Shown here piece after piece: positions 26,864 to 42,251 of a stretch of DNA of 64,000 bases. Every line of letters begins with the position of its first letter. Position 1 is the stretch's first letter. The translations under genes were made by a program, and so were the position numbers. Origin of the DNA: Aeromicrobium senzhongii (GTDB lineage: Bacteria; Actinomycetota; Actinomycetes; Propionibacteriales; Nocardioidaceae); the NCBI RefSeq assembly GCF_014334735.1, contig NZ_CP060587.1, forward strand, positions 2,728,001 through 2,792,000. The letters run 5' to 3'. The notes under the pieces are model-generated. The model saw nothing but the letters and a program-made list of their open reading frames with translations, was not told the DNA's origin and did not search any database.

Positions 26864-26918
26864 GCCAGGCGTGGGCCCCACACCCCGGGATCCACGAGCG
26901 GCGCGGGACACTGGGCGC

Positions 26919-27938
26919 ATGATCACGCCACCCTCCCCGACCGCTCGGGACGCTGCTCGTGACCGCCTCGCCGGGCTCGCCATCCCGGCCGGCGCCCTGG
27001 GCCGACTCGGGGAGGTCGCCGTGTGGTGGTCCTCGGTGCGCGGCGAGACGACGCCCGCTCCCCCGTCGCACGTGCGAGCCGTGGTGTTCGCGGGCGACCA
27101 CGGTGTCGCCTCCCACGGGGTCTCGGCCTACCCGGCGGCCATCACCGGCGCGATGGTGCGCGCGTTCGTGAGCGGCGTCGCCGGCGTCTCGGTGCTGGCC
27201 CGCCAGCACGACGTGACGCTGCGCGTGCTGGACCTGGGCGTCGACGGCGACTTCCCCGACCTCGATCCCGCCCTCGGCGAGTTCAAGGTGCGCCGTGGGA
27301 CCGAGCCGATCCACCTCGCCGACGCGATGACCGCGGACGAGACCCGCCGGGCCATCGACGCCGGCCGTCGGATCGCCGAGCAGGAGATCGCGGCCGGCGC
27401 CGACCTGCTGATCGGCGGCGACATGGGTATCGGCAACACGACCCCCGCCGTCGCCCTGATCGCCGCGGCCTTGGGCCTCCCGGCCGACGAGGTCGTCGGA
27501 CGCGGCACCGGCATCGACGACGCCGGACTCGCGCTGAAGACGGACGTCGTCGCGACGGCGCTGGAGCGAGCCGGCGACCGGGTGTCCGATCCCGTCGAGT
27601 TGCTGACCGCGATCGGCAGCCCCGACCTCGCCGCGCACGCGGCCTTCATCGCGGCCGCCGCCGAGGCAGGCGTGCCGGTGCTGCTGGACGGCGTGATCTC
27701 CGTGGCCGCCGCAACGGTGGCCGAGCGGCTCAGCCCCGGCGCCACGGCCTGGATGGCCGCGGGCCACCGGTCGACCGAGAAGGCGCAGTGGCGCGCCCTC
27801 GAGGCCCTCGGCCTCTCACCGCTGGTCGACGTCGACATGCGCCTGGGCGAGGGCTCGGGCGCCGTGGCCGCTGTTCCCCTCCTGCGCTCGGCCGCGCTCC
27901 TGCTGTCCCAGATGGCTCTCCTGGACGAGTTGATGTGA
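26919..27938 (+). CDS. cobT: Nicotinate-nucleotide--dimethylbenzimidazole phosphoribosyltransferase
   Basis: CobT activates the lower ligand of B12, forming alpha-ribazole phosphate from nicotinate mononucleotide and dimethylbenzimidazole. The 339-residue protein shows VVFAGDHGVASHGVSAYP, the GGDMGIGNTTPAVALIAAAL phosphate loop, GRGTGIDDAGL, and MRLGEGSGAVAAVPLL, whose first Glu is the catalytic base. Start ATG 26919 is preceded by GACACT six bases upstream, a weak -10 that would fit leaderless expression. It overlaps cobS by 4 bp (GTGA). Together with cobS and the opposite-strand cobU it completes nucleotide loop assembly. Confidence 0.95.
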   Translation: MITPPSPTARDAARDRLAGLAIPAGALGRLGEVAVWWSSVRGETTPAPPSHVRAVVFAGDHGVASHGVSAYPAAITGAMVRAFVSGVAGVSVLARQHDVTLRVLDLGVDGDFPDLDPALGEFKVRRGTEPIHLADAMTADETRRAIDAGRRIAEQEIAAGADLLIGGDMGIGNTTPAVALIAAALGLPADEVVGRGTGIDDAGLALKTDVVATALERAGDRVSDPVELLTAIGSPDLAAHAAFIAAAAEAGVPVLLDGVISVAAATVAERLSPGATAWMAAGHRSTEKAQWRALEALGLSPLVDVDMRLGEGSGAVAAVPLLRSAALLLSQMALLDELM

Positions 27939-28714
27939 GCCGGTTCTCCGACGCCGTCCGCCTCTCCGCGGGCACGTTCAGCGCCGTCCCGGTCCCGGCG
28001 CCGCGTCGCGTCGACCGCGAGACGGCCGGCATCGCCGTCGCGATCGCTCCCCTCGCGGTGCTGCCGGTGGGCGTGTTCGTCGCTCTCGTGGCGTGGGGCG
28101 CGCGCGAGCTGGGACTGGAGCCGGTCGTCGTCGGAGCACTCGCCATCGGCGCGGGCGCCTGGGCCACGCGCGGGTTCCACCTGGACGGACTGGCGGACAC
28201 GGCGGACGCGCTGGCGTCCTCCTACGACCGTGATCGAGCCCTGACGGTCGCCCGCACCGGCGACGTCGGACCGGCCGGCGCGGCCACCCTCGTCCTCGTC
28301 CTGCTCGTCCAGGCCGCCTCGGCCGGCTTCGTCGCCGCCTGCTGGCCGTGGGGACCTGCGGCGGTCGGCGTCCTGTGGTGCCTCGCGCGCGCCGGCGCCA
28401 CGGTGGGCCTGCGGCGGGGCGTCCCGGCAGCCCGTCAGGACGGCATGGGCGCCACCTTCGCCGGCAGCGTGCACCCGCTGGTCCTCGTCGTCGTCTGGCT
28501 GCTCGTCGCCGCGATCGCCGTGGCGACCACCGGCCTCACGGCTGCCCCCATGGCACACGGGCTGGTCACCGCCGTGGTGACACTGGTGGCCGTCTTCGCC
28601 GTCGTGACGCACGTCGTCCGCCGCCTCGGCGGCATCATCGGCGACGCCGTGGGCGCGAGCGTCGAGATCGCCCTCGTGGTCCTGCTGGTCGGGTTCTCGG
28701 CGGTCGTCGGATGA
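27935..28714 (+). CDS. cobS: Adenosylcobinamide-GDP ribazoletransferase (cobalamin synthase)
   Basis: CobS is an integral membrane enzyme that joins adenosylcobinamide-GDP with alpha-ribazole (phosphate) to give cobalamin. The 259-residue protein has the hallmark ATRGFHLDGLADTADALASS with the metal-binding aspartates, followed by the DRDRALTVARTGDVGPAGA block, then several hydrophobic helices and RRLGGIIGDAVGASVEIA near the C terminus. The GTG start at 27935 overlaps the cobT stop, and the stop overlaps tag. Length is within the family range. Confidence 0.95.
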   Translation: MSRFSDAVRLSAGTFSAVPVPAPRRVDRETAGIAVAIAPLAVLPVGVFVALVAWGARELGLEPVVVGALAIGAGAWATRGFHLDGLADTADALASSYDRDRALTVARTGDVGPAGAATLVLVLLVQAASAGFVAACWPWGPAAVGVLWCLARAGATVGLRRGVPAARQDGMGATFAGSVHPLVLVVVWLLVAAIAVATTGLTAAPMAHGLVTAVVTLVAVFAVVTHVVRRLGGIIGDAVGASVEIALVVLLVGFSAVVG

Positions 28715-29320: not shown

Positions 29321-29851
29321 TCAGAGCCGCAGGACGCGACCCGAGACCACGAGCAGCACCTCGTCGCAGTCGTCGGCGAACCGCTGGTTGACCGTGCCGA
29401 GCAGATCACGGAACAACCGGCCCGAGCGGGTCTCGGGAACGACGCCCCACCCGACCTCGTTGGTCACCACGACGACGTCCTCGGCATGGGCGGTCATCGC
29501 CAGGATCGCGTCCTCGACCCGCTTCCACAGCAGCGGCTCCCACTCGTCGAGCGTCTTGTCCCAGCCGTCGAGCTCGTCGATCAACGCGGTGACCCAGGTG
29601 CCGAGGCAGTCGATGATCACCGGGGTGTCGGCCATCGCGATCGCCTGCTCGAGATCGGCGGTCTCGACCGTCTTCCAGTGCTCGGGACGACGCTCACGAT
29701 GTGCTTGGACCCGCGCCGCCCAGTCGGGGTCGAACTCGGGGTCCGGCGGCGGGCCGGGGGCGACGTACGTGACGTCGGGCGCGCCGACGACCAACGACTC
29801 GGCCTGGAACGACTTGCCGGAGCGCACACCACCGGTGATCAGGGTCCTCAT
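29321..29851 (-). CDS. cobU: Adenosylcobinamide kinase / adenosylcobinamide-phosphate guanylyltransferase
   Basis: CobU phosphorylates adenosylcobinamide and transfers GMP to it, yielding adenosylcobinamide-GDP for CobS. The 176-residue protein has the P-loop GGVRSGKS at its N terminus, then HRERRPEHWKTVE (with the guanylyl-accepting histidine region), VIIDCLGTWVTALIDE and VVVTNEVGWGVVPETRSGRLFRDLLG, all typical. The ATG at 29851 is chosen over a GTG one codon earlier because TAGGCT ends six bases before it. It is separated from cobST by strand but only 600 bp away. Confidence 0.95.
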   Translation of the reverse strand: MRTLITGGVRSGKSFQAESLVVGAPDVTYVAPGPPPDPEFDPDWAARVQAHRERRPEHWKTVETADLEQAIAMADTPVIIDCLGTWVTALIDELDGWDKTLDEWEPLLWKRVEDAILAMTAHAEDVVVVTNEVGWGVVPETRSGRLFRDLLGTVNQRFADDCDEVLLVVSGRVLRL

Positions 29852-29857
29852 CACCGC

Positions 29858-29903: not shown

Positions 29904-30530
29904 TCACGGACGCCGGCGACGGGCGACGACGAAGGCGGCGACGGCCACCAGGAAGACCGCGCCGATCGCGATCGGCAGCACGGTCGTCACGGCCGTGGGC
30001 GACTCGTCGGAGGCCTTCTCGCCGTGGTCCGCCACGACCGCCGCCTCCCGCGTCTGCGCATCGGCGGCGGCGTTCACCTCGACCTTCTCGCCGTCGGACA
30101 TCTGCTGGTACTTCAGGGCGACGAAGTCACCCGCGGCCAGCTCGTACTCCTGCAGGCCGACCGAGGCGTAGTCCCAGTCCTGGCCCTCCTTCGCCACCAT
30201 GAACGCCCAGTAGCCCGGGCCGTTGAGCGCGTTGCCGCACTTCTCCTGGGCGGGCGTGGGCTGACCGTCGATCCGGCACACCATCGGCGGCGAGCCCGCG
30301 GTGTCCTGGACCTCGACGCCGGCGTCGGTCAGCGCCTTCAGGCCGGTCTGCCCCGCGGCGTGCTGCGCGCACAGGATCCGGTCCTTGCCGTCGAGCGCAC
30401 CGAACTCCAGGACGATCGGCACGTCCTCGTCGGACTCGCAGGACTCGTGCGCGGTCGCAGCTGTCGGCACGACCGCGACGGCTGCGGCGAGGAGCAGGAG
30501 GGCGGCGAGGCGGGCGAACCAGGACTTCAC
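29904..30530 (-). CDS. Secreted, membrane-anchored DUF4430/transcobalamin-C-like protein
   Basis: The 208-residue protein has a signal peptide (about residues 1-28, ending TAATA-HES), a compact domain, a short linker and one C-terminal helix followed by RRRR. The domain contains GLKALTDAGVEVQDT, PMVCRIDGQPTP, GPGYWAFMVAKEGQDWDYAS and LAAGDFVALKYQQ, a pattern shared with the protein at 34304-35161 and with the DUF4430 family, which corresponds to the C-terminal beta domain of animal transcobalamin. Four cysteines suit an exported fold. GTG 30530 overlaps the S-component stop (GTGA), with AAGGAG upstream. I infer a cell-surface corrinoid-binding role next to the importer. Confidence 0.72.
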   Translation of the reverse strand: MKSWFARLAALLLLAAAVAVVPTAATAHESCESDEDVPIVLEFGALDGKDRILCAQHAAGQTGLKALTDAGVEVQDTAGSPPMVCRIDGQPTPAQEKCGNALNGPGYWAFMVAKEGQDWDYASVGLQEYELAAGDFVALKYQQMSDGEKVEVNAAADAQTREAAVVADHGEKASDESPTAVTTVLPIAIGAVFLVAVAAFVVARRRRP

Positions 30531-31342
30531 GAAGGCTCCTTCGGGAGGTAGCGGGCGCGCCGGGCGGCACGCCTCAAGGTGGCCAGGACGGCCGGGCCCA
30601 GCGTCACGATCAACAGCACGTTCGTGATCGCGCGGCCCAGGTCCCAGCCCCAGAACGACGTCAGCAGGGTGAAGACGAGGAAGCGGTGCAGGTTGTCGAG
30701 GACCGGGTCGCCCGGGACCATCGACAGCGAGTCCTCGGCACCGGGGATCGCGATGCCGAGCGTGAAGGGCCACGACGAGAGGTTCATCAGCAGTCCGAAC
30801 CCGTAGGCCGCGATGATCGCGTACCCGGCGAGCATCGCGATCTCGGCGCGGCCGGTGACACGGCGCGGCAGCAGGCCGGCACCCATCCCCACCCACGCGG
30901 CACACAGCATCTGGAACGGCAGCCAGGGCCCCACGCCGGAGGTCAACAGCGCCGAGGCGAACAGGCTCGTGCAGCCCAGGACGAAACCGAAGCCGGCGCC
31001 GAAGACGCGTCCGCCGAGGATCAGCAGGAAGAAGACCAGCTCGACGCCCGCCACGCCCGCGCCCAGCGGTCGCACGGCCGCGTTGATCGCGCTCAGCACC
31101 CCCAGCATCGCCAGCGCCTTGGAGTCCAGACCGCCCTCGGAGAGCTCGGCGATCACGACCAGGACCACGACGGGCATGAGAGCCATGAACAGGAACGGCT
31201 GGTCGACGCGCGTCTCACCGGCAGCCGGCGAGATGATCAGCGGCCACAGCAGCATGACCAGACCGGCGATGCTCGCGGCCGTCAGGACCAACGCCGAGCG
31301 CAGGGTCACCGGGACGGCGACACGGGTCCGGGGCGCGCTCAC
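30527..31342 (-). CDS. ECF transporter substrate-binding (S) component, probably for cobalamin
   Basis: This 271-residue hydrophobic protein has about seven membrane helices, with GLVMLLWPLIISP, VVVLVVIAELSEGGLDSKALAMLGVLSAINAAVRP-type segments and VFGAGFGFVLGCTSLFASALL. The AINAAVRPLGAG stretch and the FGFVLG...SALLTSGVGPWLPFQML order match S components of the CbrT/HMP group of energy-coupling-factor transporters. It sits after EcfT and EcfA with 4-bp overlaps on both sides and lies downstream of a cobalamin riboswitch, so I assign corrinoid specificity by context. Binding residues cannot be identified by eye. Confidence 0.8.
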   Translation of the reverse strand: MSAPRTRVAVPVTLRSALVLTAASIAGLVMLLWPLIISPAAGETRVDQPFLFMALMPVVVLVVIAELSEGGLDSKALAMLGVLSAINAAVRPLGAGVAGVELVFFLLILGGRVFGAGFGFVLGCTSLFASALLTSGVGPWLPFQMLCAAWVGMGAGLLPRRVTGRAEIAMLAGYAIIAAYGFGLLMNLSSWPFTLGIAIPGAEDSLSMVPGDPVLDNLHRFLVFTLLTSFWGWDLGRAITNVLLIVTLGPAVLATLRRAARRARYLPKEPS

Positions 31343-32940
31343 CGGACCACCTCCGACGGCAGCCGGGCCGCGACCTCGTCGACCGTGAGCCAGTCGTGAC
31401 CGAGCACCTTGGAGACCTGCGGCGCGAACGCCGGCGACTCGGCCAGCACCTCGCGCACCGGGCCCGACGACACGACCTCGCCGTCCGCCAGGACGACGAC
31501 CGTGTCGGCCACCGTCGCGACGAACTCGACGTCATGACTGGACACGACGATGCCGTGCCCGTCGGCGGCGAGGTCGTGCAGGATGCGGGCCAGCGCCGCC
31601 TTGCCCGGGTAGTCCAGACCGCGCGTGGGCTCGTCGAGCGCCACGACCGCGGGCTGGGCGGTCAGCACGACGGCCAGCACGAGAGCCAGCTTCTGACCCT
31701 CCGACAGGTCGCGCGGGTGACGGTGTCCCACGATGCCCGGCGCCAGGCGGTCCAGCAGACCTCGGCACGTTCCCGGGGCGACGCCCGCCTGGTCGTCGGC
31801 GGCGGCGCACTCGCGGTCGACCGTTTCGAGGTAGAGCAGGTCCGCGGCGGTCTGGGGCACGAGCCCGACGAGCATCCGGGCCTCGACCGGACGGACGTCG
31901 CCGGGGTCGACCCCGTCGACGTCGACGACTCCGGAGGTCCGGTCGCCGGTGCCCTGCACGGCCCACAGCAGCGAGCTCTTGCCCGAGCCGTTGCGCCCCA
32001 TGAGCGCCACGACCTCGCCGTGCCCGACCCTCAGGTCGACGTCGTCGACGGCGGCGAAGTGGCCGTAGCGGACCGTGATGCCCCGTGCCTCCAGCGCCGG
32101 CGGACGCTCGGGGGTGTGCGGCCGTGGCGGCGACCCGAGCCGCTCGGCCAGTGGCTTGACCCGGCGCCGGGCCTCGCGCACCGACAGCGGCAGCGGACGC
32201 CATCCGGCCAGCCGTCCCAGGTGCACCAACGGTGGCGCCACCGGGGCGTCGACCAACAGCTCGGCCGGCTCGCCGATGCGGACCCGGCCGTCCTCGACCA
32301 CCGCCAGCCGGTCGGCGAAGGGAACGACCCGCTCCATCCGGTGCTCGGCGACGACCACGGTGAGGGCCAGATCGTCGACGAGGCGGGCGATGGTCGCCAG
32401 GACGTCCTCGGCCGCGGTGGGGTCGAGCGCCGACGTGGGCTCGTCCAGCACCAGCACGCGGGGGTGCATCGTCAGGACCGATCCGATGGCGACCCGCTGC
32501 TGCTGACCACCGGACAGGGACCGCACCGACCGCCGGCGCAGGTCCGCGATCCCCAGCAGGTCGAGCGTCTCCTCGACCCGGCGGCGCATCGTCCGCGGAT
32601 CGAGACCGAGGTGCTCCATGCCGTAGGCCAGCTCCTCCTCGACGACGTCGGCGACGAATCCCGAGAGCGGGTCCTGGGCCACGTAGCCGACGAGGTGTGC
32701 CAGCTCGCGTGGCGGACGGCCGACGATCGACGCGCCGTCGATGCGGATGTCGCCGGCGAGCGTGCCGCCGGTGAAGTGCGGCACGAGCCCGTTCAGCATC
32801 CCCAGCAGGGTCGACTTGCCCGACCCGGTGCGGCCGGACACCAGCACCAGCTCGCCCTCGTCGATCTCGAGGTCGACCCCGGCCAGCGTGGGCACGTCGG
32901 CCCCGTCGTACCAGAAGGTGACGTCGTCGAAGGAGATCAT
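31339..32940 (-). CDS. ECF transporter ATPase with two fused ABC domains
   Basis: A 533-residue protein with two complete ATPase domains. The first has SGRTGSGKSTLLG (about residue 36), LSGGQQQRVAIG and VLVLDEPTSALDPTA; the second has MGRNGSGKSSLLW (about 315), LSEGQKLALVLAV and VVALDEPTRGLDYPG. This corresponds to EcfA and EcfA' fused in one chain and would power uptake together with EcfT. The second signature LSEGQ differs from the canonical LSGGQ, as is usual in one half of asymmetric pairs. Start ATG 32940 overlaps EcfT (ATGA), stop overlaps the S component. Confidence 0.92.
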   Translation of the reverse strand: MISFDDVTFWYDGADVPTLAGVDLEIDEGELVLVSGRTGSGKSTLLGMLNGLVPHFTGGTLAGDIRIDGASIVGRPPRELAHLVGYVAQDPLSGFVADVVEEELAYGMEHLGLDPRTMRRRVEETLDLLGIADLRRRSVRSLSGGQQQRVAIGSVLTMHPRVLVLDEPTSALDPTAAEDVLATIARLVDDLALTVVVAEHRMERVVPFADRLAVVEDGRVRIGEPAELLVDAPVAPPLVHLGRLAGWRPLPLSVREARRRVKPLAERLGSPPRPHTPERPPALEARGITVRYGHFAAVDDVDLRVGHGEVVALMGRNGSGKSSLLWAVQGTGDRTSGVVDVDGVDPGDVRPVEARMLVGLVPQTAADLLYLETVDRECAAADDQAGVAPGTCRGLLDRLAPGIVGHRHPRDLSEGQKLALVLAVVLTAQPAVVALDEPTRGLDYPGKAALARILHDLAADGHGIVVSSHDVEFVATVADTVVVLADGEVVSSGPVREVLAESPAFAPQVSKVLGHDWLTVDEVAARLPSEVVR

Positions 32941-34082
32941 GCGGGCTCACCGCCGATCTGGTCGTGGGCGACGGGGGCCTGCGGGGCCACGAAGACCGGC
33001 GCGATCGCGATGGCCACGACCAGCAGCGACGTCACGCTCAGCGGCGGCCACCCCGGGACATCGGGGTAGAGCACGGCCACCTGGTGGGTCGAGAGCACCT
33101 TGAGTCCCACGGCGACGGCGATCCCGGACGCCGCCGTGAGGTACTCCGCGGCGTACCACCGCAGGGGCCGGTACCGGGTGCGGTGGACCCGCCGGCCCGC
33201 GGACCGCAGGGCCAGCACGGCGAAGACGAGCCCGACGACCAGCATCGGATAGGACAGCACCCGCGGCGCCGCGCCGTCGAGGTAGCCGTAGGTGCCGACG
33301 ATCAGCCCGAACAGGCCGAGCAGCATCAGCACCCCGGTGACGAACCGCTCGCGCGGAGCCGCCGTGCCGCTGCGGCCATACCCGCGTGCGTCCATCCCCG
33401 CGGCGAGGGTCATCGAGCGGTCGAGCGCGTCCTCCAGCACCGGGATCACGACACGATGCATCGCGCCCGTGCCCCGGCTGGCGTCGCCGCGCAGCTTGCG
33501 GGCGCGGTTGACCCGGCGGACGCTCTCGGCCAACTGCGGGAACACCGAGACGGCCACGACCAGGGCGGCGCCGACCTCATAGAGCGCCGGCGGGGCCGAG
33601 GCGAGCAGCCGCTTGGGGTTGGCCAGCGAGTTCGCGGCGCCGACGCAGATGATCAGGGCGGCCAGCCGCATCCCGTCGTACAGGCCGACCAGCACCTCGT
33701 TGACGGTGACGTCGCCGAGGAGCTGGATCCCGCGCGCCGCCTCGGGCAACGGGATCTCGGGAAGGTGGAACAGCACCGGGTCGTCCGGGGCCGATCCGCC
33801 ACCGAGCACGATGCGGAAGACCACCCGCATCACCACGATGAGCAGTCCGAAGTAGAGGTAGTACCGGAACGACAGGGCCCATGGCGCGTCGCCGCGGCAT
33901 GCCGCCACCACGAGTCCCGCGATCGCGACCGTCGCCAGGAGCAGGAAGGGATTGAGCGTGAAGGACGCTCCGGCGGCGAGGCCGAGCGCCCACAGCCACC
34001 AGGCTCCGGGGTGCAGTTCGCGACGTGGCCGACCCGGAGACCGACCCGTGGTGGGTGCGGCGGGGTCGGCGAGCGTGGTCAT
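32937..34082 (-). CDS. ecfT: ECF transporter transmembrane component EcfT
   Basis: The 381-residue protein has N-terminal membrane helices, a long coupling segment with RVNRARKLRGD and ARGYGRSGT (the two Ala-Arg-Gly-type coupling motifs that contact the ATPases), and more helices at the C terminus, making it longer than the 260-residue norm by an extra helical tail. It energises uptake by linking the ATPases to the S component. I start at ATG 34082, where GGGGAC lies 4-9 bases upstream, rather than at the frame's upstream ATG inside the riboswitch. That ribosome site falls in a hairpin arm. Confidence 0.9.
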   Translation of the reverse strand: MTTLADPAAPTTGRSPGRPRRELHPGAWWLWALGLAAGASFTLNPFLLLATVAIAGLVVAACRGDAPWALSFRYYLYFGLLIVVMRVVFRIVLGGGSAPDDPVLFHLPEIPLPEAARGIQLLGDVTVNEVLVGLYDGMRLAALIICVGAANSLANPKRLLASAPPALYEVGAALVVAVSVFPQLAESVRRVNRARKLRGDASRGTGAMHRVVIPVLEDALDRSMTLAAGMDARGYGRSGTAAPRERFVTGVLMLLGLFGLIVGTYGYLDGAAPRVLSYPMLVVGLVFAVLALRSAGRRVHRTRYRPLRWYAAEYLTAASGIAVAVGLKVLSTHQVAVLYPDVPGWPPLSVTSLLVVAIAIAPVFVAPQAPVAHDQIGGEPA

Positions 34083-34116: not shown

Positions 34117-34277
34117 CACGAGGAGTCGGCGCCCACCGGTTGTTGCGCGACAACATGTGGTGGCGGTCCGACACGGGTTCCCGACTCGCCCCGCGCGCCT
34201 CGGCGCGACGGAACTCACGGTTGCGGCACAGCACCGGATTCGCACCGGTTTCCCCTGGGCCGGACCTGGGTTCAACG
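34100..34277 (-). ncRNA. Cobalamin riboswitch upstream of the ECF operon
   Basis: On the minus strand the core reads GGGGAAACCGGTGCGAATCC, then GGTGCTGTGCCGCAACCGTGAG, which is the conserved centre of the cobalamin (B12-box) aptamer, located at 34214-34256. A 3' stretch GAGTCGGGAACCCGTGTCGG occupies the position of the second conserved half. A promoter -10 (TAGACT) lies just upstream at 34284-34289. The element precedes ecfT, so B12 would switch off its own importer. Boundaries are approximate. Confidence 0.9.
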
Positions 34278-34303: not shown

Positions 34304-35161
34304 TCAGACTCCCCGCCGACGGCGCCAGACGATGCCGGCCGCGGCAGCCAGCACGACCCCGACGGCGATCGCGGCGGCGATCACGGGGGCCCCGGTACCC
34401 GCCGCATCGGTCTCGGCGGCCGCCGGCCGTACGGACCTGTCGGCGCCACCTGCCGCGCCGATCGCGTCGCCGGGCGCGGACGTGGCGGTGGTGGGCGCCG
34501 TCGCGGAGGGCGAAGCCGTCGGGCCGGGAGTCGTCGGGGTTCGCGTCGGCGCGGCACTGGGCACGGTGGTGACCGATCCCGGCGCAGCGGTCGCTCCTGG
34601 CCGCGACTTCGCGACCGGAGCGTCCTTCGCCGTGGTGCCCCCGTCCGACGAACGCGGCGGCTTCTTCGTGGCACCGGCATCCGACGGAGCGGGGCGCTCG
34701 GGGGCCTTCGCCGTCGCGACCGGCGCAGGGACCGACGGCAGGGTCCGCCGCTGCGAGCGCTGGAAGACGAACGCCACCGAGCCGCCGGTGGGCACCTTGA
34801 GGGAGGTGACACCCAAGCTGGAGTACACCCACGAGCCGGACTTCCCGTCGGACCAGAACAACCCCCAGTAGGCGTCGTTGGGCGATGCCTCGACGCAGGG
34901 GTCGGAGGCCGGCGCACCGTCGACCCGGCACACGAAGCCCGGGGCTCGCGAGGCGTACTTCAGGGTGTGGCCCGCGTCGGAGAAGTTGTCGGACGCGCGA
35001 CCGCCGCCGTCACGATCGCAGCCGACCGATCCGTTGACGACGACCGTGACCCCGGTTCCGGGCGCACAGGCCGCGGCATGGGCGGGCGCGGTCCCTCCCG
35101 CCACGCCGGCGGCGACCCCGAGCAGGGCCGCCGCCAGCGCGCGGACGAGACGTGTCGTCAC
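34304..35161 (-). CDS. Membrane-anchored DUF4430/transcobalamin-C-like protein
   Basis: This 285-residue exported protein has a signal peptide (about residues 1-30, AHA-AACAP), a domain of about 100 residues with VTVVVNGSVGC, SDAGHTLKYASRAPGFVCRV, SPNDAYWGLFWSDGKSGSWV and KVPTGGSVAFVFQ, then a roughly 130-residue Pro/Thr/Ala-rich linker and a C-terminal helix with RRRRGV. The domain pattern is that of DUF4430, related to the C-terminal beta domain of transcobalamin and intrinsic factor. The long linker would hold it away from the membrane. GTG 35161 overlaps the stop of the alpha/alpha-barrel protein (GTGA), implying equal synthesis of two partners. Confidence 0.75.
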   Translation of the reverse strand: MTTRLVRALAAALLGVAAGVAGGTAPAHAAACAPGTGVTVVVNGSVGCDRDGGGRASDNFSDAGHTLKYASRAPGFVCRVDGAPASDPCVEASPNDAYWGLFWSDGKSGSWVYSSLGVTSLKVPTGGSVAFVFQRSQRRTLPSVPAPVATAKAPERPAPSDAGATKKPPRSSDGGTTAKDAPVAKSRPGATAAPGSVTTVPSAAPTRTPTTPGPTASPSATAPTTATSAPGDAIGAAGGADRSVRPAAAETDAAGTGAPVIAAAIAVGVVLAAAAGIVWRRRRGV

Positions 35162-36714
35162 TTCACGACCCGGAAGGAGGTCGCACCCTGGCGATCGGTG
35201 AACGCGCCGCGCACGACGACCTTGGCCGTGCCGGTCTTGCGGCCGACCTTGAACCGGTACGTGTACGTGCCCTGCGCCGAGGCGACACCGCGCCTGACGA
35301 CCTTGCCCCGGTACTGGATCCGGACCGGCTCGCGGGCAGCGAGTCCGCGCACGACGACCTTCTGGACCTTGGCGCGCTTGACCTTCTTCCTGGCCTTCGC
35401 GACGGCGAGCTTGCGGGCGCCCAGGACCGTGACCGACGTGGAGCCGGCTCGGTTGCCGCGCGAGCCCGTGACGGTGACCGTGCGCGTGGCGGTGCCGGCC
35501 GGAGTCGCGACGGACGCCGTCACGACGCCGTTCGCCGGCACGGTGCCGCGGGCCGTGCCGCCCCCGGCGATCGTGGCCGTGTACTTCTCACCCGGTCGCA
35601 GTCCCGTGGCCCGCACGGACGCCGCGCGCCGGGCGCTGACGAACGTCCCGGACCGGGTCACCTCGACCTTCGTGGCCGACAGCTGCGCCTGGACCCCGGC
35701 GGCCGCCTGGGCGGTGGCACGGATCCACTGGTCGCGACTCTCGTCCGTGATCCCCTCGTCCGCGCCGGTCGCCATCGCGGCGGCGTCGTACGCGACCGCG
35801 CCGATCTCGTTGGCCAGGGCCGTGTCCTCGGCCTTGGCGTCCGTCACCTGGTGCTTCACGAGCCAGGCGGCCGCGGACCCGGCGGCTCCCGTCTGACCCG
35901 CCAGCCGCAGCGCCGTCGCCGCCAGACCGGTCGAGTTCGTGTTCGGGGTGCCGTTCCCGACGAACGATCCGTCCGCGGCCTGTGCCGACGCCAGCGCCTT
36001 CGCCGCGGCCGCGAGCTCGTCGGCGACGCCGGTGTGGCCGGCCTTCACCGCTTCGGCGAGGGCGATCGTCGCGAAGGCCGTCGAGTCGACCTCGATCGTG
36101 GACTCGCAGGCGGCGGCGTAGTTCTGCAGGAACGAGCCGTTCGGGCACTGCTTCGACAGCAGGAACGCCACGGACTCGTCGGCCTCGTCGCTGCCCGCCG
36201 CGACCAGGGCGCGCGTGGCCCAGGTCTGGCCGACGCCGCCGTAGGTCAAGCCGGGATCGATGGCTCCGGTGGTGTCGTCGGTGAGGCGCTCGATCTGCGC
36301 GACCAAGTCGGTGCCGTTCACGTCGGAGGCATCGCCGCCCACCGCTTCGACCGCGACCGCGAGCTTGCCACCCGAGCCGGGGTAGAACGTGACCTTCGAC
36401 CCGTCGTCGTAGGTGGTGTAGTCCGCGACCTTCGCGCTGACGGCATCGACGATGCGGGTCTGCGTCGCCGTCCGCGTCCCGAGCTCGTTCAACGCGAAGA
36501 ACACGTCGAGCGACAGTCCGTAGTCGTCGAAGCCGCCCCAGTTCGGGTTGTGCACGAGGCCGCCGGTGAGCTGGTCGTCCAGCCAGCGCGCGGCGGAGTA
36601 CGCATAGCTGTTGGGGGCCGCGGAAGCGGCGGGAGTGACGGCGACGGCCGTCGAGAGGGCGATCGCGCCGGAGGCGACGGCGATCAGGGCGCGCTGGCGC
36701 ACGGGTGACTTCAT
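35158..36714 (-). CDS. Secreted prenyltransferase/squalene-oxidase-repeat protein (transcobalamin N-domain-like)
   Basis: The 518-residue protein begins with a signal peptide (about 1-33, cleavage near ASA-APN). Residues about 35-310 show repeats of the terpenoid-cyclase alpha/alpha-barrel fold: AARWLDDQLTGGLVHNPNWG, LLSKQCPNGSFLQNYAAACE and AKALASAQAADGSFVGNGTP, each with the G-S/F turn of PT repeats. The C-terminal 200 residues are beta-rich and Ig-like. The catalytic Asp-rich motifs of real cyclases are absent, so it is a binding fold. It follows a cobalamin riboswitch, with RBS GGAAGGAA before ATG 36714, and is coupled to a DUF4430 protein. I infer that it binds corrinoids outside the cell. 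Confidence 0.8.
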   Translation of the reverse strand: MKSPVRQRALIAVASGAIALSTAVAVTPAASAAPNSYAYSAARWLDDQLTGGLVHNPNWGGFDDYGLSLDVFFALNELGTRTATQTRIVDAVSAKVADYTTYDDGSKVTFYPGSGGKLAVAVEAVGGDASDVNGTDLVAQIERLTDDTTGAIDPGLTYGGVGQTWATRALVAAGSDEADESVAFLLSKQCPNGSFLQNYAAACESTIEVDSTAFATIALAEAVKAGHTGVADELAAAAKALASAQAADGSFVGNGTPNTNSTGLAATALRLAGQTGAAGSAAAWLVKHQVTDAKAEDTALANEIGAVAYDAAAMATGADEGITDESRDQWIRATAQAAAGVQAQLSATKVEVTRSGTFVSARRAASVRATGLRPGEKYTATIAGGGTARGTVPANGVVTASVATPAGTATRTVTVTGSRGNRAGSTSVTVLGARKLAVAKARKKVKRAKVQKVVVRGLAAREPVRIQYRGKVVRRGVASAQGTYTYRFKVGRKTGTAKVVVRGAFTDRQGATSFRVVK

Positions 36715-36764
36715 GGGGTTCCTTCCCGCTGCAGAACGGGAGGAGCCCGCGAAGGGCACCACCC

Positions 36765-36908
36765 GCTGTATTCCTCGACAGCGAATTGGTCGGTTCCGAC
36801 AGGCAGGTGCTCCGGCTCGCCGGCCCGGGAATGGCCGATCTCACGGTTGCGGGTCAGCGCCGGATTCTCACCGGCTTCCCCTGACACTGCGGAAGATGTG
36901 TGGTTGTG
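36765..36908 (-). ncRNA. Cobalamin riboswitch upstream of the B12-capture pair
   Basis: On the minus strand the core at 36840-36881 reads GGGGAAGCCGGTGAGAATCC, then GGCGCTGACCCGCAACCGTGAG, the classic cobalamin aptamer consensus. Downstream, GAGCCGGAGCACCTGCCTG matches the second conserved half. A CCCG/CGGG hairpin just before the ATG at 36714 includes the ribosome site GGGAAGG, so control is probably translational. A -10 TAGCGT lies at 36915-36920. Boundaries are approximate. Confidence 0.93.
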
Positions 36909-36914
36909 GCGAGC

Positions 36915-36920
36915 ACGCTA
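36915..36920 (-). promoter_or_regulatory. -10 hexamer TAGCGT for the riboswitch-capture-pair transcript
   Basis: TAGCGT on the minus strand overlaps the stop codon of the upstream GH114-like gene (ends 36918). Transcription would start near 36908, directly at the riboswitch. Confidence 0.5.
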
Positions 36921-37691
36921 GCAGGTGCGGAAGACGTGCCCGGGCCGCCCACGGGCGATGAGATCACGATCACGCAGCACGACCGAGATCCGCGAGCCCC
37001 GCGCCCGGCAGGCCCGGGCGAAGGCCTCGCGGCCGTTGTCGGTGTACTCCACCTCGATCACCCGGCGGCCGTACATCCGCGTGTATCGGCCGCACTCGCG
37101 GTACACCTCGCACTCCTCGGCCACGGCGAAGTCGAAGCCCAGCCTCCGGCCGTTCAGTCCGGCCGTGTTCTTCTGCGCGATCGCGAGGCGCTCGGCGTGC
37201 GCGGCACGCACCAGGAGCCTCGCGTGAGCGCGGGCATGCGAGCGCTTCAGCAGCTTCTTCGAGCGGGTCCACGAGTCGAGGTTGTCCGGCTCGACGGCCC
37301 GGAAACCGCGGTCGGCACAGCCGGCGAACCACCTCCGGGCGATCCTCACCGCGGCGGCGCGCTTCCTCGCCGTGCGCAGGTCCAGCAGGACCTCGCCGGG
37401 CCAGTCGCGGTCGCGCACGAGGCGGCCCTTGCCATCGCGCAACAACAGCCCGGGGTGCTTCTTCCGCCACCACGAGAGGCGGCCCGGCTGCGTCTGGAAC
37501 GCGTTCACGTAACAGACCGAGTACACGCCGGAGGCCGGTTTCGCGGTGCGATCACGGACCACGATCTCGACGTCGGACGCGGGCCGGTAGGCGCCGCCGA
37601 GCTGGTAGTCGGCCGTTCCGCCCGCCGGCGGCAGCGCGATCGGAGTGACCGCGGTGAGCACGGCCAGCGCCAGCGAGACCACGAACGTCAT
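36918..37691 (-). CDS. Secreted GH114-like (endo-alpha-1,4-polygalactosaminidase family) protein
   Basis: The 257-residue protein has a signal peptide (about 1-21), then a TIM-barrel segment with YQLGGAYRPASDVEIVVRD, SVCYVNAFQTQPG, WPGEVLLDL, GFRAVEPDNLDSW and GLNGRRLGFDFAVAEEC. These are the marks of the GH114 / TM1410 family, named for an enzyme that cleaves galactosaminogalactan; EPDNLDSW contains the presumed catalytic acid. Six cysteines suit export. ATG 37691 has AGGTGAGG ahead. It lies between the B12 region and an acyl-CoA oxidase gene and shows no clear link to either. The true substrate in this organism is unknown. Confidence 0.82.
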   Translation of the reverse strand: MTFVVSLALAVLTAVTPIALPPAGGTADYQLGGAYRPASDVEIVVRDRTAKPASGVYSVCYVNAFQTQPGRLSWWRKKHPGLLLRDGKGRLVRDRDWPGEVLLDLRTARKRAAAVRIARRWFAGCADRGFRAVEPDNLDSWTRSKKLLKRSHARAHARLLVRAAHAERLAIAQKNTAGLNGRRLGFDFAVAEECEVYRECGRYTRMYGRRVIEVEYTDNGREAFARACRARGSRISVVLRDRDLIARGRPGHVFRTC

Positions 37692-41231: not shown

Positions 41232-42251
41232 GTGCGCCTCGCACCCCTGCTGGCCGCCGCGACCCTCGCGTTCAGCCTGGCCGCCTGCGGCTCCTCCTCC
41301 TCCGACGACTCGAACGAAGCCTCGGGGGCTTCGGGTGAGAACTTCCCCGTCACGATCGAGCACGCCCTGGGCAAGACCGAGATCACGAGCGAGCCGAAGC
41401 GCGTCGCCACCGTCGCCTGGTCGAACCAGGACACCGCCCTCGCGCTGGGCGTCGTGCCGGTCGGCATGCCCAAGGCCACGTACGGCGACGACGACACCGA
41501 CGGGCTGCACCCGTGGGTCAAGGACAAGATCGACGAGCTCGAGGGCGAGACTCCCGTCCTGTTCGACGAGACCGAAGGCATCGACGCCGCCGCGGTCGCC
41601 CAGACCAGCCCCGACCTGATCCTCGCGCCCAACTCCGGCCTGACGAAGGAGGAGTACGAGACGCTCTCCAAGATCGCCCCGACCGTCGCGTTCCCCGACG
41701 AGGCGTGGGGCACCACGTGGCGCGACGCCATCAAGCTGACCGGCCAGGCGCTGGGCAAGACCGACCAGGCGACGCAGCTGATCGCCGACCTCGAGCAGCA
41801 GATGGCCGACGCCGTCGCGAAGCACCCGCAGATCAAGGGCAAGACGGCCGTGATGAGCTGGATCGACCCGACCGACCTGAGCAAGGTCGGCTACTACACC
41901 GCCTTCGACACCCGCGCGGCGTTCCTCAACGACCTCGGCTTCTCGACGCCGGACTTCGTCACGAAGGCCTCGGAGTCGTCCGACCAGTTCTTCCTCGAGG
42001 TCAGCTCCGAGAAGGCCGACGAGCTCGCCGGTGCAGACGTCTTCGTGGGCTACGGCGACGCCGCGGCCCTCACGAAGGCCCAGGCCCACCCGCTGGTCGG
42101 CAAGATCCCCGCGATCGAGCGCGGATCCGTCGCCCTGTTGAAGGACAACACCCCGCTGGCCGCGGCCGTGTCGCCGTCGGCCCTCTCGATCCCGTGGATG
42201 CTCGACGACTACGTCGCGCTGCTCGCGGATGCCTCTTCGAAGGTGAAGTGA
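41232..42251 (+). CDS. Iron-siderophore ABC transporter substrate-binding lipoprotein
   Basis: A 339-residue FecB/FepB-type receptor. Lipobox LAAC places the lipidated cysteine at residue 19, after which comes a Ser/Asp-rich linker. The class III binding-protein fold is visible as ALGKTEITSEPKRVATVAWSNQDTALALGV, TSPDLILAPNSGLTKEEYETLSKIAPTV and the C-terminal LPxAIERGSVALL-type end (IPAIERGSVALLKDN). It captures ferric siderophores at the cell surface and hands them to the permease pair downstream. GTG 41232 is the start. An iron box precedes it and the next gene overlaps by 4 bp. Confidence 0.93.
   Translation: MRLAPLLAAATLAFSLAACGSSSSDDSNEASGASGENFPVTIEHALGKTEITSEPKRVATVAWSNQDTALALGVVPVGMPKATYGDDDTDGLHPWVKDKIDELEGETPVLFDETEGIDAAAVAQTSPDLILAPNSGLTKEEYETLSKIAPTVAFPDEAWGTTWRDAIKLTGQALGKTDQATQLIADLEQQMADAVAKHPQIKGKTAVMSWIDPTDLSKVGYYTAFDTRAAFLNDLGFSTPDFVTKASESSDQFFLEVSSEKADELAGADVFVGYGDAAALTKAQAHPLVGKIPAIERGSVALLKDNTPLAAAVSPSALSIPWMLDDYVALLADASSKVK

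Follow-up and report, generated by a model that had tools for sequence, protein, structure and literature searches.

A predicted two-chain, transcobalamin-like corrinoid trap encoded under cobalamin riboswitches in Aeromicrobium senzhongii

Known corrinoid-binding systems

The animal carriers of vitamin B12 (cobalamin), transcobalamin, haptocorrin, and intrinsic factor, are secreted proteins in which a single chain comprises both an alpha/alpha barrel and a beta domain. The same two folds are predicted for two secreted proteins, here called P0001 and P0002, encoded by overlapping genes in a 64,000-nucleotide stretch of the genome of Aeromicrobium senzhongii (contig NZ_CP060587.1, positions 2,728,001 to 2,792,000), hereafter the window. 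The source genome is a single contig of 3.13 Mb, rated 100% complete, and among the matches listed the nearest named relatives of P0001 and P0002 are from Aeromicrobium. In contrast to the animal proteins, the two folds are found here on two chains, one of them anchored, which are not detected by the respective Pfam models (PF01122 for P0001 and PF14478, or DUF4430, for P0002) and whose corrinoid binding is a prediction.

The closest described bacterial proteins form the transcobalamin-like clade of the SLBB superfamily, predicted in 2007 by Burroughs et al. to be extracellular B12 scavengers (PMC1796856). According to the available part of that paper, these proteins have signal peptides and, in several cases, anchors and are commonly fused to alpha/alpha toroids; a second paralogue is often found in the operon, generally together with genes similar to CbiO and CbiQ; and the hosts, mainly low-GC Gram-positive bacteria, usually lack key enzymes of B12 biosynthesis. 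Transfer from Gram-positive bacteria was proposed there as the origin of the animal B12 carriers. P0002 is similar to these proteins in being secreted and in being encoded with CbiO/CbiQ-like genes, a toroid partner, and a second paralogue, P0003. However, the toroid of that clade, as described in the same part, is fused in one chain, whereas the one encoded here is a separate, coupled gene in Actinomycetes. The word riboswitch is absent from the searched text of that paper, which names actinobacteria only for another family. New with respect to the 2007 work are the two-gene form without fusion, the close coupling of the genes, the riboswitches, the pairing in Actinomycetes, and a beta domain that the Pfam DUF4430 model misses. 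A preliminary description of this locus knew of no characterized bacterial system of this form. This agrees with the open-licence literature, in which, a few proteomic or genomic papers naming DUF4430 proteins aside, no experimental study of a transcobalamin-like protein from bacteria was found, but it passes over the 2007 prediction of the clade with its toroid fusions and CbiO/CbiQ operons.

Among the NCBIfam families, the equivalog model NF053823 (SCO2321 family membrane protein) matches P0001 and 28 more of 44 aligned barrel sequences at E ≤ 0.01 (29/44; the 44 were picked from the best 120 of 257 matches), although P0001, with 28.3 of 300 bits, does not reach its cut-off. In a locus from the same class (L134), the barrel is NF053823-like (112.8 of 300 bits) and the beta gene is NF040672-like (SCO2322 family; 33.9 of 85 bits); the module described here differs from SCO2321/SCO2322-type operons in gene order and tail domains. 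The open-licence literature yielded no paper that describes what SCO2321 to SCO2325 do.

Unlike P0001 and P0002, BtuF of the BtuCDF system is a single binding protein of the periplasm that serves a different type of ATP-binding cassette (ABC) importer. Like the role proposed here for the pair, that of BtuF is the extracellular capture of cobalamin and cobinamide (PMC5997447, as far as the available part goes). ECF-CbrT of Lactobacillus delbrueckii is an energy-coupling factor (ECF)-type importer, as is the one encoded next to P0002, and its cargo is cobalamin and cobinamide; by contrast, CbrT belongs to group II, with a shared ECF module, and the available part of the paper names no extracellular binding partner for it (PMC5997447).

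Organization of the locus

The presence in the window of a cobalamin riboswitch, a barrel gene, and a coupled beta-domain gene is confirmed. The core features are as follows.

36785..36922, minus strand: cobalamin riboswitch 1, 5' of the barrel gene (RF00174, 35.7 bits)
36700..36784, minus strand: linker and possible translational expression platform, with a hairpin over the likely Shine-Dalgarno sequence before the P0001 ATG
35158..36714, minus strand: P0001, 518 amino acids; signal peptide, alpha/alpha barrel at residues 34-345, beta-rich tail at 346-518
35680..36615, minus strand: alpha/alpha barrel domain of P0001
34304..35161, minus strand: P0002, 285 amino acids; signal peptide, beta domain, linker, C-terminal helix
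34748..35062, minus strand: transcobalamin-type beta domain of P0002
34175..34254, minus strand: cobalamin riboswitch 2, between P0002 and the EcfT gene (RF00174, 36.2 bits)

The TGA stop codon of P0001 and the GTG start codon of P0002 share the bases GTGA at 35161-35158, and riboswitch 1 lies 70 nucleotides before the ATG of P0001, so that the 4-bp gene overlap behind a cobalamin riboswitch is as previously described. With the starts chosen here, overlaps of 4 bp are also found at P0006/P0005, P0005/P0004, and P0004/P0003. The full minus-strand order is riboswitch 1, P0001, P0002, riboswitch 2, P0006, P0005, P0004, P0003, CobU; the preliminary layout had the pair and riboswitch 1 and left out riboswitch 2 and the paralogue P0003.

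The barrel protein

The AlphaFold2 model of P0001 has a mean pLDDT (predicted local distance difference test score) of 92.6, and its barrel matches the alpha/alpha-barrel domain of transcobalamin in structure comparison. The beta-rich tail (346-518) is read as two immunoglobulin (Ig)-like domains. Of 79 loci (defined below), 54 have a detected tail on the last barrel and 25 do not; this tail (35161-35679, minus strand) also matches parts of other, mostly large frames in the genus genomes. By inspection, P0001 has neither an anchor nor a lipobox or transmembrane stretch past its signal peptide; thus, it must be held by something or diffuses away.

At the sequence level, P0001 matches no Pfam family over its cut-off. 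Among the aligned barrel sequences, PF00432 matches 24/44 and PF13243 27/44 at E ≤ 0.1. PF01122 (Cobalamin_bind), the animal cobalamin-binding family, is not found in P0001 at E ≤ 1 and matches 2/44, with a best E value of 1.7e-4; a PDB search with the P0001 profile does not reach transcobalamin. The same profile matches squalene-hopene cyclase at 1.6e-16, and the cyclase family TIGR01787 is matched by 39/44 sequences; family scores are far under the cut-offs (24.8 against 322.7). The catalytic DXDD motif is not kept at the aligned site, where DVDD of squalene-hopene cyclase corresponds to EVDS in P0001; across the 44 sequences this site has the first Asp in 10, the middle Asp in 43, and the last Asp in 0. 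A DXDD string is found in 12/44, at positions other than the aligned site.

The beta-domain proteins

P0002 consists of a signal peptide, a beta domain (about 34-138), a linker (about 139-257), a C-terminal helix (258-284), and an RRRR tail. Structure comparison identifies its model as the beta-grasp fold of the transcobalamin type, which, with the barrel of P0001, bears out the earlier assignment of both transcobalamin folds. So does the sequence bear out their split over two proteins, one with a long linker and an anchor, the linker comprising ~120 residues, 77% of them Pro, Ala, Thr, Ser, or Gly. In the model, a helix (56-62) is followed by two short strands (67-69 and 77-80), a possible counterpart of the beta-hairpin insert that comes after the helix in the transcobalamin-like clade. 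A hydrophobic C-terminal stretch is found in 70 of 79 beta frames by a simple hydropathy threshold. Both a membrane anchor and a sortase-type signal are conceivable for the tail: the GVDTG sorting domain matches, at E ≤ 0.1, 18 of the 46 P0002-type sequences that were aligned (best, 5.5e-6), P0002 itself not among them.

These 46 sequences were picked from the best 120 of 426 matches. None of them, P0002 included, matches PF14478 at E ≤ 0.1, and the NCBIfam models give no DUF4430 match to P0002 and its aligned relatives; it is therefore structure that reveals the beta fold. The earlier label "DUF4430-like" is thus unsupported by Pfam for P0002; the link is a structural one or runs through P0003. 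Specifically, profile-profile probabilities are 98.4% for P0002 and P0003, 93.7% for P0003 and PF14478, and 0.9% for P0002 and PF14478 directly, against 0.1 to 1.9% for four unrelated controls, which suggests an indirect tie of P0002 to DUF4430, by a chain through P0003. A PDB search with the P0002 profile does not reach transcobalamin; with a mixed P0003/PF14478 profile, haptocorrin (E = 0.016) and transcobalamin (E = 0.068) appear, ranked under two unrelated repeat proteins. In the aligned stretch, haptocorrin has GPYITCIQGL...YW and transcobalamin 2 has GPYLTSVMGK...FW; the by-eye counterparts are PGFVCRVDGAP...YW in P0002 and PMVCRIDGQP...YW in P0003. V77, C78, Y98, and W99 are invariant in all 46 P0002-type sequences.

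Conservation of the arrangement

Bacterial and archaeal species genomes were scanned for relatives of P0002, and the best 80 of 91 are the loci counted here. They come from Aeromicrobium, Nocardioides, Marmoricola, and other Nocardioidaceae, as well as from metagenome-assembled genomes labeled only as Propionibacteriales, Actinomycetes, or Actinomycetota. The beta gene is immediately preceded, on the same strand, by a barrel gene in 79 of the 80; the exception (L081) is on a contig that begins 115 nucleotides before the beta domain. Counting any in-frame ATG, GTG, or TTG as a start, a possible beta start falls from -20 to +60 of the barrel stop in 76/79 loci; in the other three, a riboswitch lies between the genes (L102 and L118) or a contig ends. 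No open reading frame in the loci scanned fuses the two domains. A riboswitch found with the lineage model R1 (see below) is located within 400 nucleotides upstream of the barrel domain in 76/80 loci, the rest being three contig ends and L102; leaving out the 24 loci that fed R1 training, the independent count is 52/56. Relatives of EcfT are found in 75/80 loci, of the ATPase in 74/80, and of EcfS in 72/80, the missing ones on loci that end early. EcfT is within 1.5 kb downstream of the beta gene in 73 loci; in L126 the ECF genes precede the pair, and in L061 EcfT comes after a second barrel-beta unit. All but one of the misses of barrel, riboswitch, and EcfT are contig ends. The arrangement is conserved far beyond chance, and the co-occurrence of the pair with B12 riboswitches and ECF genes in related genomes, on which the preliminary description had staked its reading, is what was found.

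Several loci show variants. The riboswitch-barrel-beta unit is tandemly duplicated upstream of one ECF set in L061 (8076-12830), tandem barrel genes precede a single beta gene in 21/80 loci (e.g., L078, L088, L090, and L099), and in L011 (genome G027) the order is reversed, with beta ahead of barrel.

Within the genus, the barrel profile lists 38 of 49 genomes, A. senzhongii included; after matches to the Ig-like tail only are dropped, the barrel part is found in 27. A beta partner is present in all 27, found by the P0003 query in 25 (within 1.5 kb), by the P0002 query in G007, and by the beta profile in G059. A P0003-like gene with no barrel match is found in 8/49 genomes, 6 of them at least 99% complete; absence is less sure in two of the eight, G058 and G022, which are in 230 and 320 contigs. 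These counts indicate that P0003 can stand without the pair and that barrel and P0002 come and go together. Among 246 genomes of the class, the barrel is found in 43 (two tail-only matches were dropped, one of which removes G544, 44 becoming 43), and absences are soft because only six candidates per genome were scored. An EcfS relative is present in 41 of these 43, compared with 129 of the 246 overall; barrel and EcfS lie within 9 kb of each other in 34, on different contigs in 7, and 2 have no EcfS match.

Five stretches from outside the family's 80 loci (L134 to L138) show related arrangements. In L138, from the same genus, two cobalamin riboswitches are found with a barrel, both beta genes, and ECF genes. 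L134 has consecutive genes for a beta protein like P0002/P0003, EcfT, ATPase, EcfS, a barrel, and a protein that exceeds the DUF4430 cut-off, with a cobalamin riboswitch (91.6 bits) on the opposite strand; this operon ties the barrel to a recognized DUF4430 neighbor outside the family. L135 has a PF14478 match only, and in L136 and L137 PF14478 proteins are encoded together with ECF ATPases, but no barrel is matched. In L137 (2826-8183), from the same phylum, a 1,538-residue frame containing DUF4430 domains has at its start an AdoCbl-II riboswitch (RF01689, 42.3 bits), and genes for a small DUF4430 protein and an ECF-like importer come next; here a related system carries a riboswitch of another class.

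Cobalamin riboswitches

The two riboswitches in the window are the only RF00174 matches at E ≤ 1 in the genome, and both exceed the gathering score of 31.5. Most sites escaped a bare regular expression for the riboswitch core, which was replaced by R1, a covariance model trained on 25 upstream sites; of its 17 pairs, 6 show changes on both sides. R1 gives 88.2 bits to riboswitch 1 at 36785-36904, a sequence in its training set, and 49.1 bits to riboswitch 2 at 34155-34277, outside that set. At the gathering score, Rfam finds 6 sites across 14 loci, and a whole-genome Rfam scan of 49 genomes finds at least one cobalamin riboswitch in each. Among the matches listed, 40 Rfam sites were picked by hand and placed by coordinate alone; they are upstream of the barrel domain by 135 to 242 nucleotides in 30 loci, 4 are outside loci, and six rows not upstream of a barrel (the second rows of L054, L056, L086, and L103, with L081 and L094) may in part belong to other contigs. 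In two Nocardioides loci (L102:9803-9918 and L118:9617-9731), a cobalamin riboswitch lies between barrel and beta gene, which gives the beta gene its own switch.

The linker after riboswitch 1 has a minimum free energy of -38.5 kcal/mol (z = -2.76), and its hairpin contains the likely Shine-Dalgarno sequence, a fold that would be consistent with translational control. The signal across relatives appears modest: the Shine-Dalgarno window is at least half paired in 61/74 homologous linkers, against a mean of 51.6 and a maximum of 57 in 20 rounds of shuffling. Folding of the linker of riboswitch 2 is unremarkable (z = -0.99).

The ECF importer and corrinoid metabolism of the host

Downstream of riboswitch 2, which thus separates P0002 from the ECF genes, the window encodes EcfT-like, ATPase, and putative S components of an importer and the second beta-domain protein.

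32937..34082, minus strand: P0006, EcfT-like, CbiQ family (PF02361, 30.6 bits; cut-off 25)
31339..32940, minus strand: P0005, fused double ECF ATPase (PF00005, 164.5 bits, two stretches)
30527..31342, minus strand: P0004, putative ECF S component (PF07155, 18.8 bits; under the 26.7 cut-off)
29904..30530, minus strand: P0003, second secreted, anchored beta-domain protein, 208 amino acids; P0002 paralogue (E = 1.6e-8)

The adjoining ECF importer of the preliminary description is therefore present, with EcfT (PF02361 above its cut-off) and paired ATPases (ABC_tran in two stretches); P0005 also scores 288.7 bits with TIGR04520 (cut-off 315). P0003 is secreted and anchored, and its gene overlaps that of EcfS by 4 bp. 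The substrate of EcfS is not readable from its sequence, since relatives of P0004 have no match among PDB chains at E ≤ 1 and the folate-family model TIGR04518 matches 10 of 15 aligned EcfS sequences weakly; the riboflavin S-component model PF07155 is the only Pfam match of P0004 at E ≤ 1. More than a dozen of the 129 class genomes with this EcfS family are 1.2-1.5 Mb. The family is a candidate for an unnamed corrinoid S component.

Three salvage genes lie nearby.

29321..29854, minus strand: CobU, cobinamide kinase/guanylyltransferase (PF02283, 172.8 bits)
26871..27938, plus strand: CobT-type phosphoribosyltransferase (PF02277, 384.4 bits)
27974..28690, plus strand: CobS, cobalamin-5'-phosphate synthase, domain extent (PF02654, 114.1 bits; residues 318-556 of frame 27023-28714)

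Relatives of CobU, CobT, and CobS are found in 2, 2, and 3 of the 80 loci, which places them outside the conserved module. The host genome has four loci with B12-binding domains and keeps CobU, CobS, and CobT; CbiC and CbiJ have no match in it, with models that found CbiC in 7/14 control genomes and CbiJ, a weak marker, in 3/14. This combination suggests the pattern of a corrinoid salvager.

Proposed mechanism and alternatives

Taken together, these data support the earlier reading of the pair as a B12 trap: P0001 and P0002 probably form a transcobalamin-like corrinoid trap of two chains, located outside the cell and feeding the ECF importer. From the genes and their order, the overlap, the riboswitches, and the predicted folds, we infer capture, closure, handover, and import; corrinoid binding, a 1:1 complex, and transfer are predictions.

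Proteolytic fragments of intrinsic factor that match the two domains reassemble around cobalamin. A beta domain can also bind on its own, as PDB entry 5np4, by its title, contains a human one together with cyanocobalamin. These two precedents lead to an order in which P0002 would catch, P0001 would close, and P0004 would receive. With its flexible linker and C-terminal anchor keeping it at the membrane or wall, the beta domain of P0002 would bind cobalamin or cobinamide that the cell scavenges; P0001, the secreted barrel, would cover the other face of the ligand; and the closed pair would pass the corrinoid to the S component P0004, perhaps aided by P0003 as a docking or second-site partner. 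Docking and transfer are purely conjectural. The ECF module P0005/P0006 would power import; CobU, CobS, and CobT would complete imported cobinamide; and, at high cytoplasmic cobalamin, riboswitch 1 would silence the trap genes and riboswitch 2 those of the importer.

Two results temper this reading. Terpene cyclases (drimenyl diphosphate synthase and other cyclases) are better structural matches to P0001 than transcobalamin, and the barrel fold alone is unspecific. Further, among 37 high-quality genus genomes, the barrel is found in 6 of 7 without CbiC and in 13 of 30 with CbiC (Fisher p = 0.09), an association with loss of ring synthesis that is suggestive and not significant; corrinoid producers may scavenge too.

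A more specific version is tentative and rather doubtful: B12 itself would assemble the carrier, with the anchored beta domain catching it, the diffusing barrel locking on, and only the closed pair docking on P0004 beside P0003, a candidate ancestral, unfused state of transcobalamin. If this is true, the pair would be a diffusible two-piece protein corrinophore, and capture, retention, and licensing of import would be one event. In the literature examined, B12 capture outside the membrane of Gram-positive bacteria, especially actinobacteria, is little described. The locus provides a concrete gene set for binding, structural, and knock-out work, combining the two domains of human transcobalamin with riboswitches and an importer. 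The split pair also bears on the origin of the animal carriers, given the proposed transfer from Gram-positive bacteria (PMC1796856, available part).

The best-surviving alternative, although unlikely, is that there is no single clamp: P0001 would be a binder secreted in free form (a protein corrinophore) or a wall-bound store, with P0002 and P0003 as independent surface receptors of the importer. A P0001 with a signal peptide and no visible anchor fits this reading, as do an Ig-like tail that could bind the wall, the P0003-like genes without a barrel in the genus, and the two barrels before one beta gene in 21/80 loci, which mean that the stoichiometry need not be 1:1. However, barrel and P0002-type beta occur together in 27/27 genus genomes and close to each other in 76/79 loci, and jointly they supply both transcobalamin domains.

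Import of cobalt or of another B12-linked small molecule, such as a lower-ligand precursor, instead of a corrinoid is improbable. Cobalt importers are also found under cobalamin riboswitches, EcfT belongs to the CbiQ cobalt-transport family, and the P0004 family gave the poor PDB and folate-family results listed above. Against this stand partner domains with the fold of B12 binders, the riboflavin S-component model as the single Pfam match of P0004, and a host with no CbiC/CbiJ match, which would gain little from cobalt for building the ring. Least likely is that P0001 is an extracellular enzyme, related to terpene cyclases or polysaccharide lyases/hydrolases and linked by the riboswitch to some other B12-regulated process, as its cyclase matches in structure and sequence might suggest: its cyclase-family score is far under the cut-off, the last Asp of DXDD is kept in none of the 44 sequences, and P0001 is secreted and encoded beside a transcobalamin-type beta gene in 79/80 loci.

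Other genes in the window

A GH114-family protein (36918-37691, minus strand; 169.5 bits) is encoded directly upstream of riboswitch 1 and is found beside the module in 0/80 loci. A Peripla_BP_2 binding protein (41232-42251, plus strand; 93 bits) likewise has relatives in 0/80 loci and no riboswitch at its gene. By inspection, apparent permease and ATPase frames follow it, to about 45110, and the gene is likely to serve in siderophore or other uptake.

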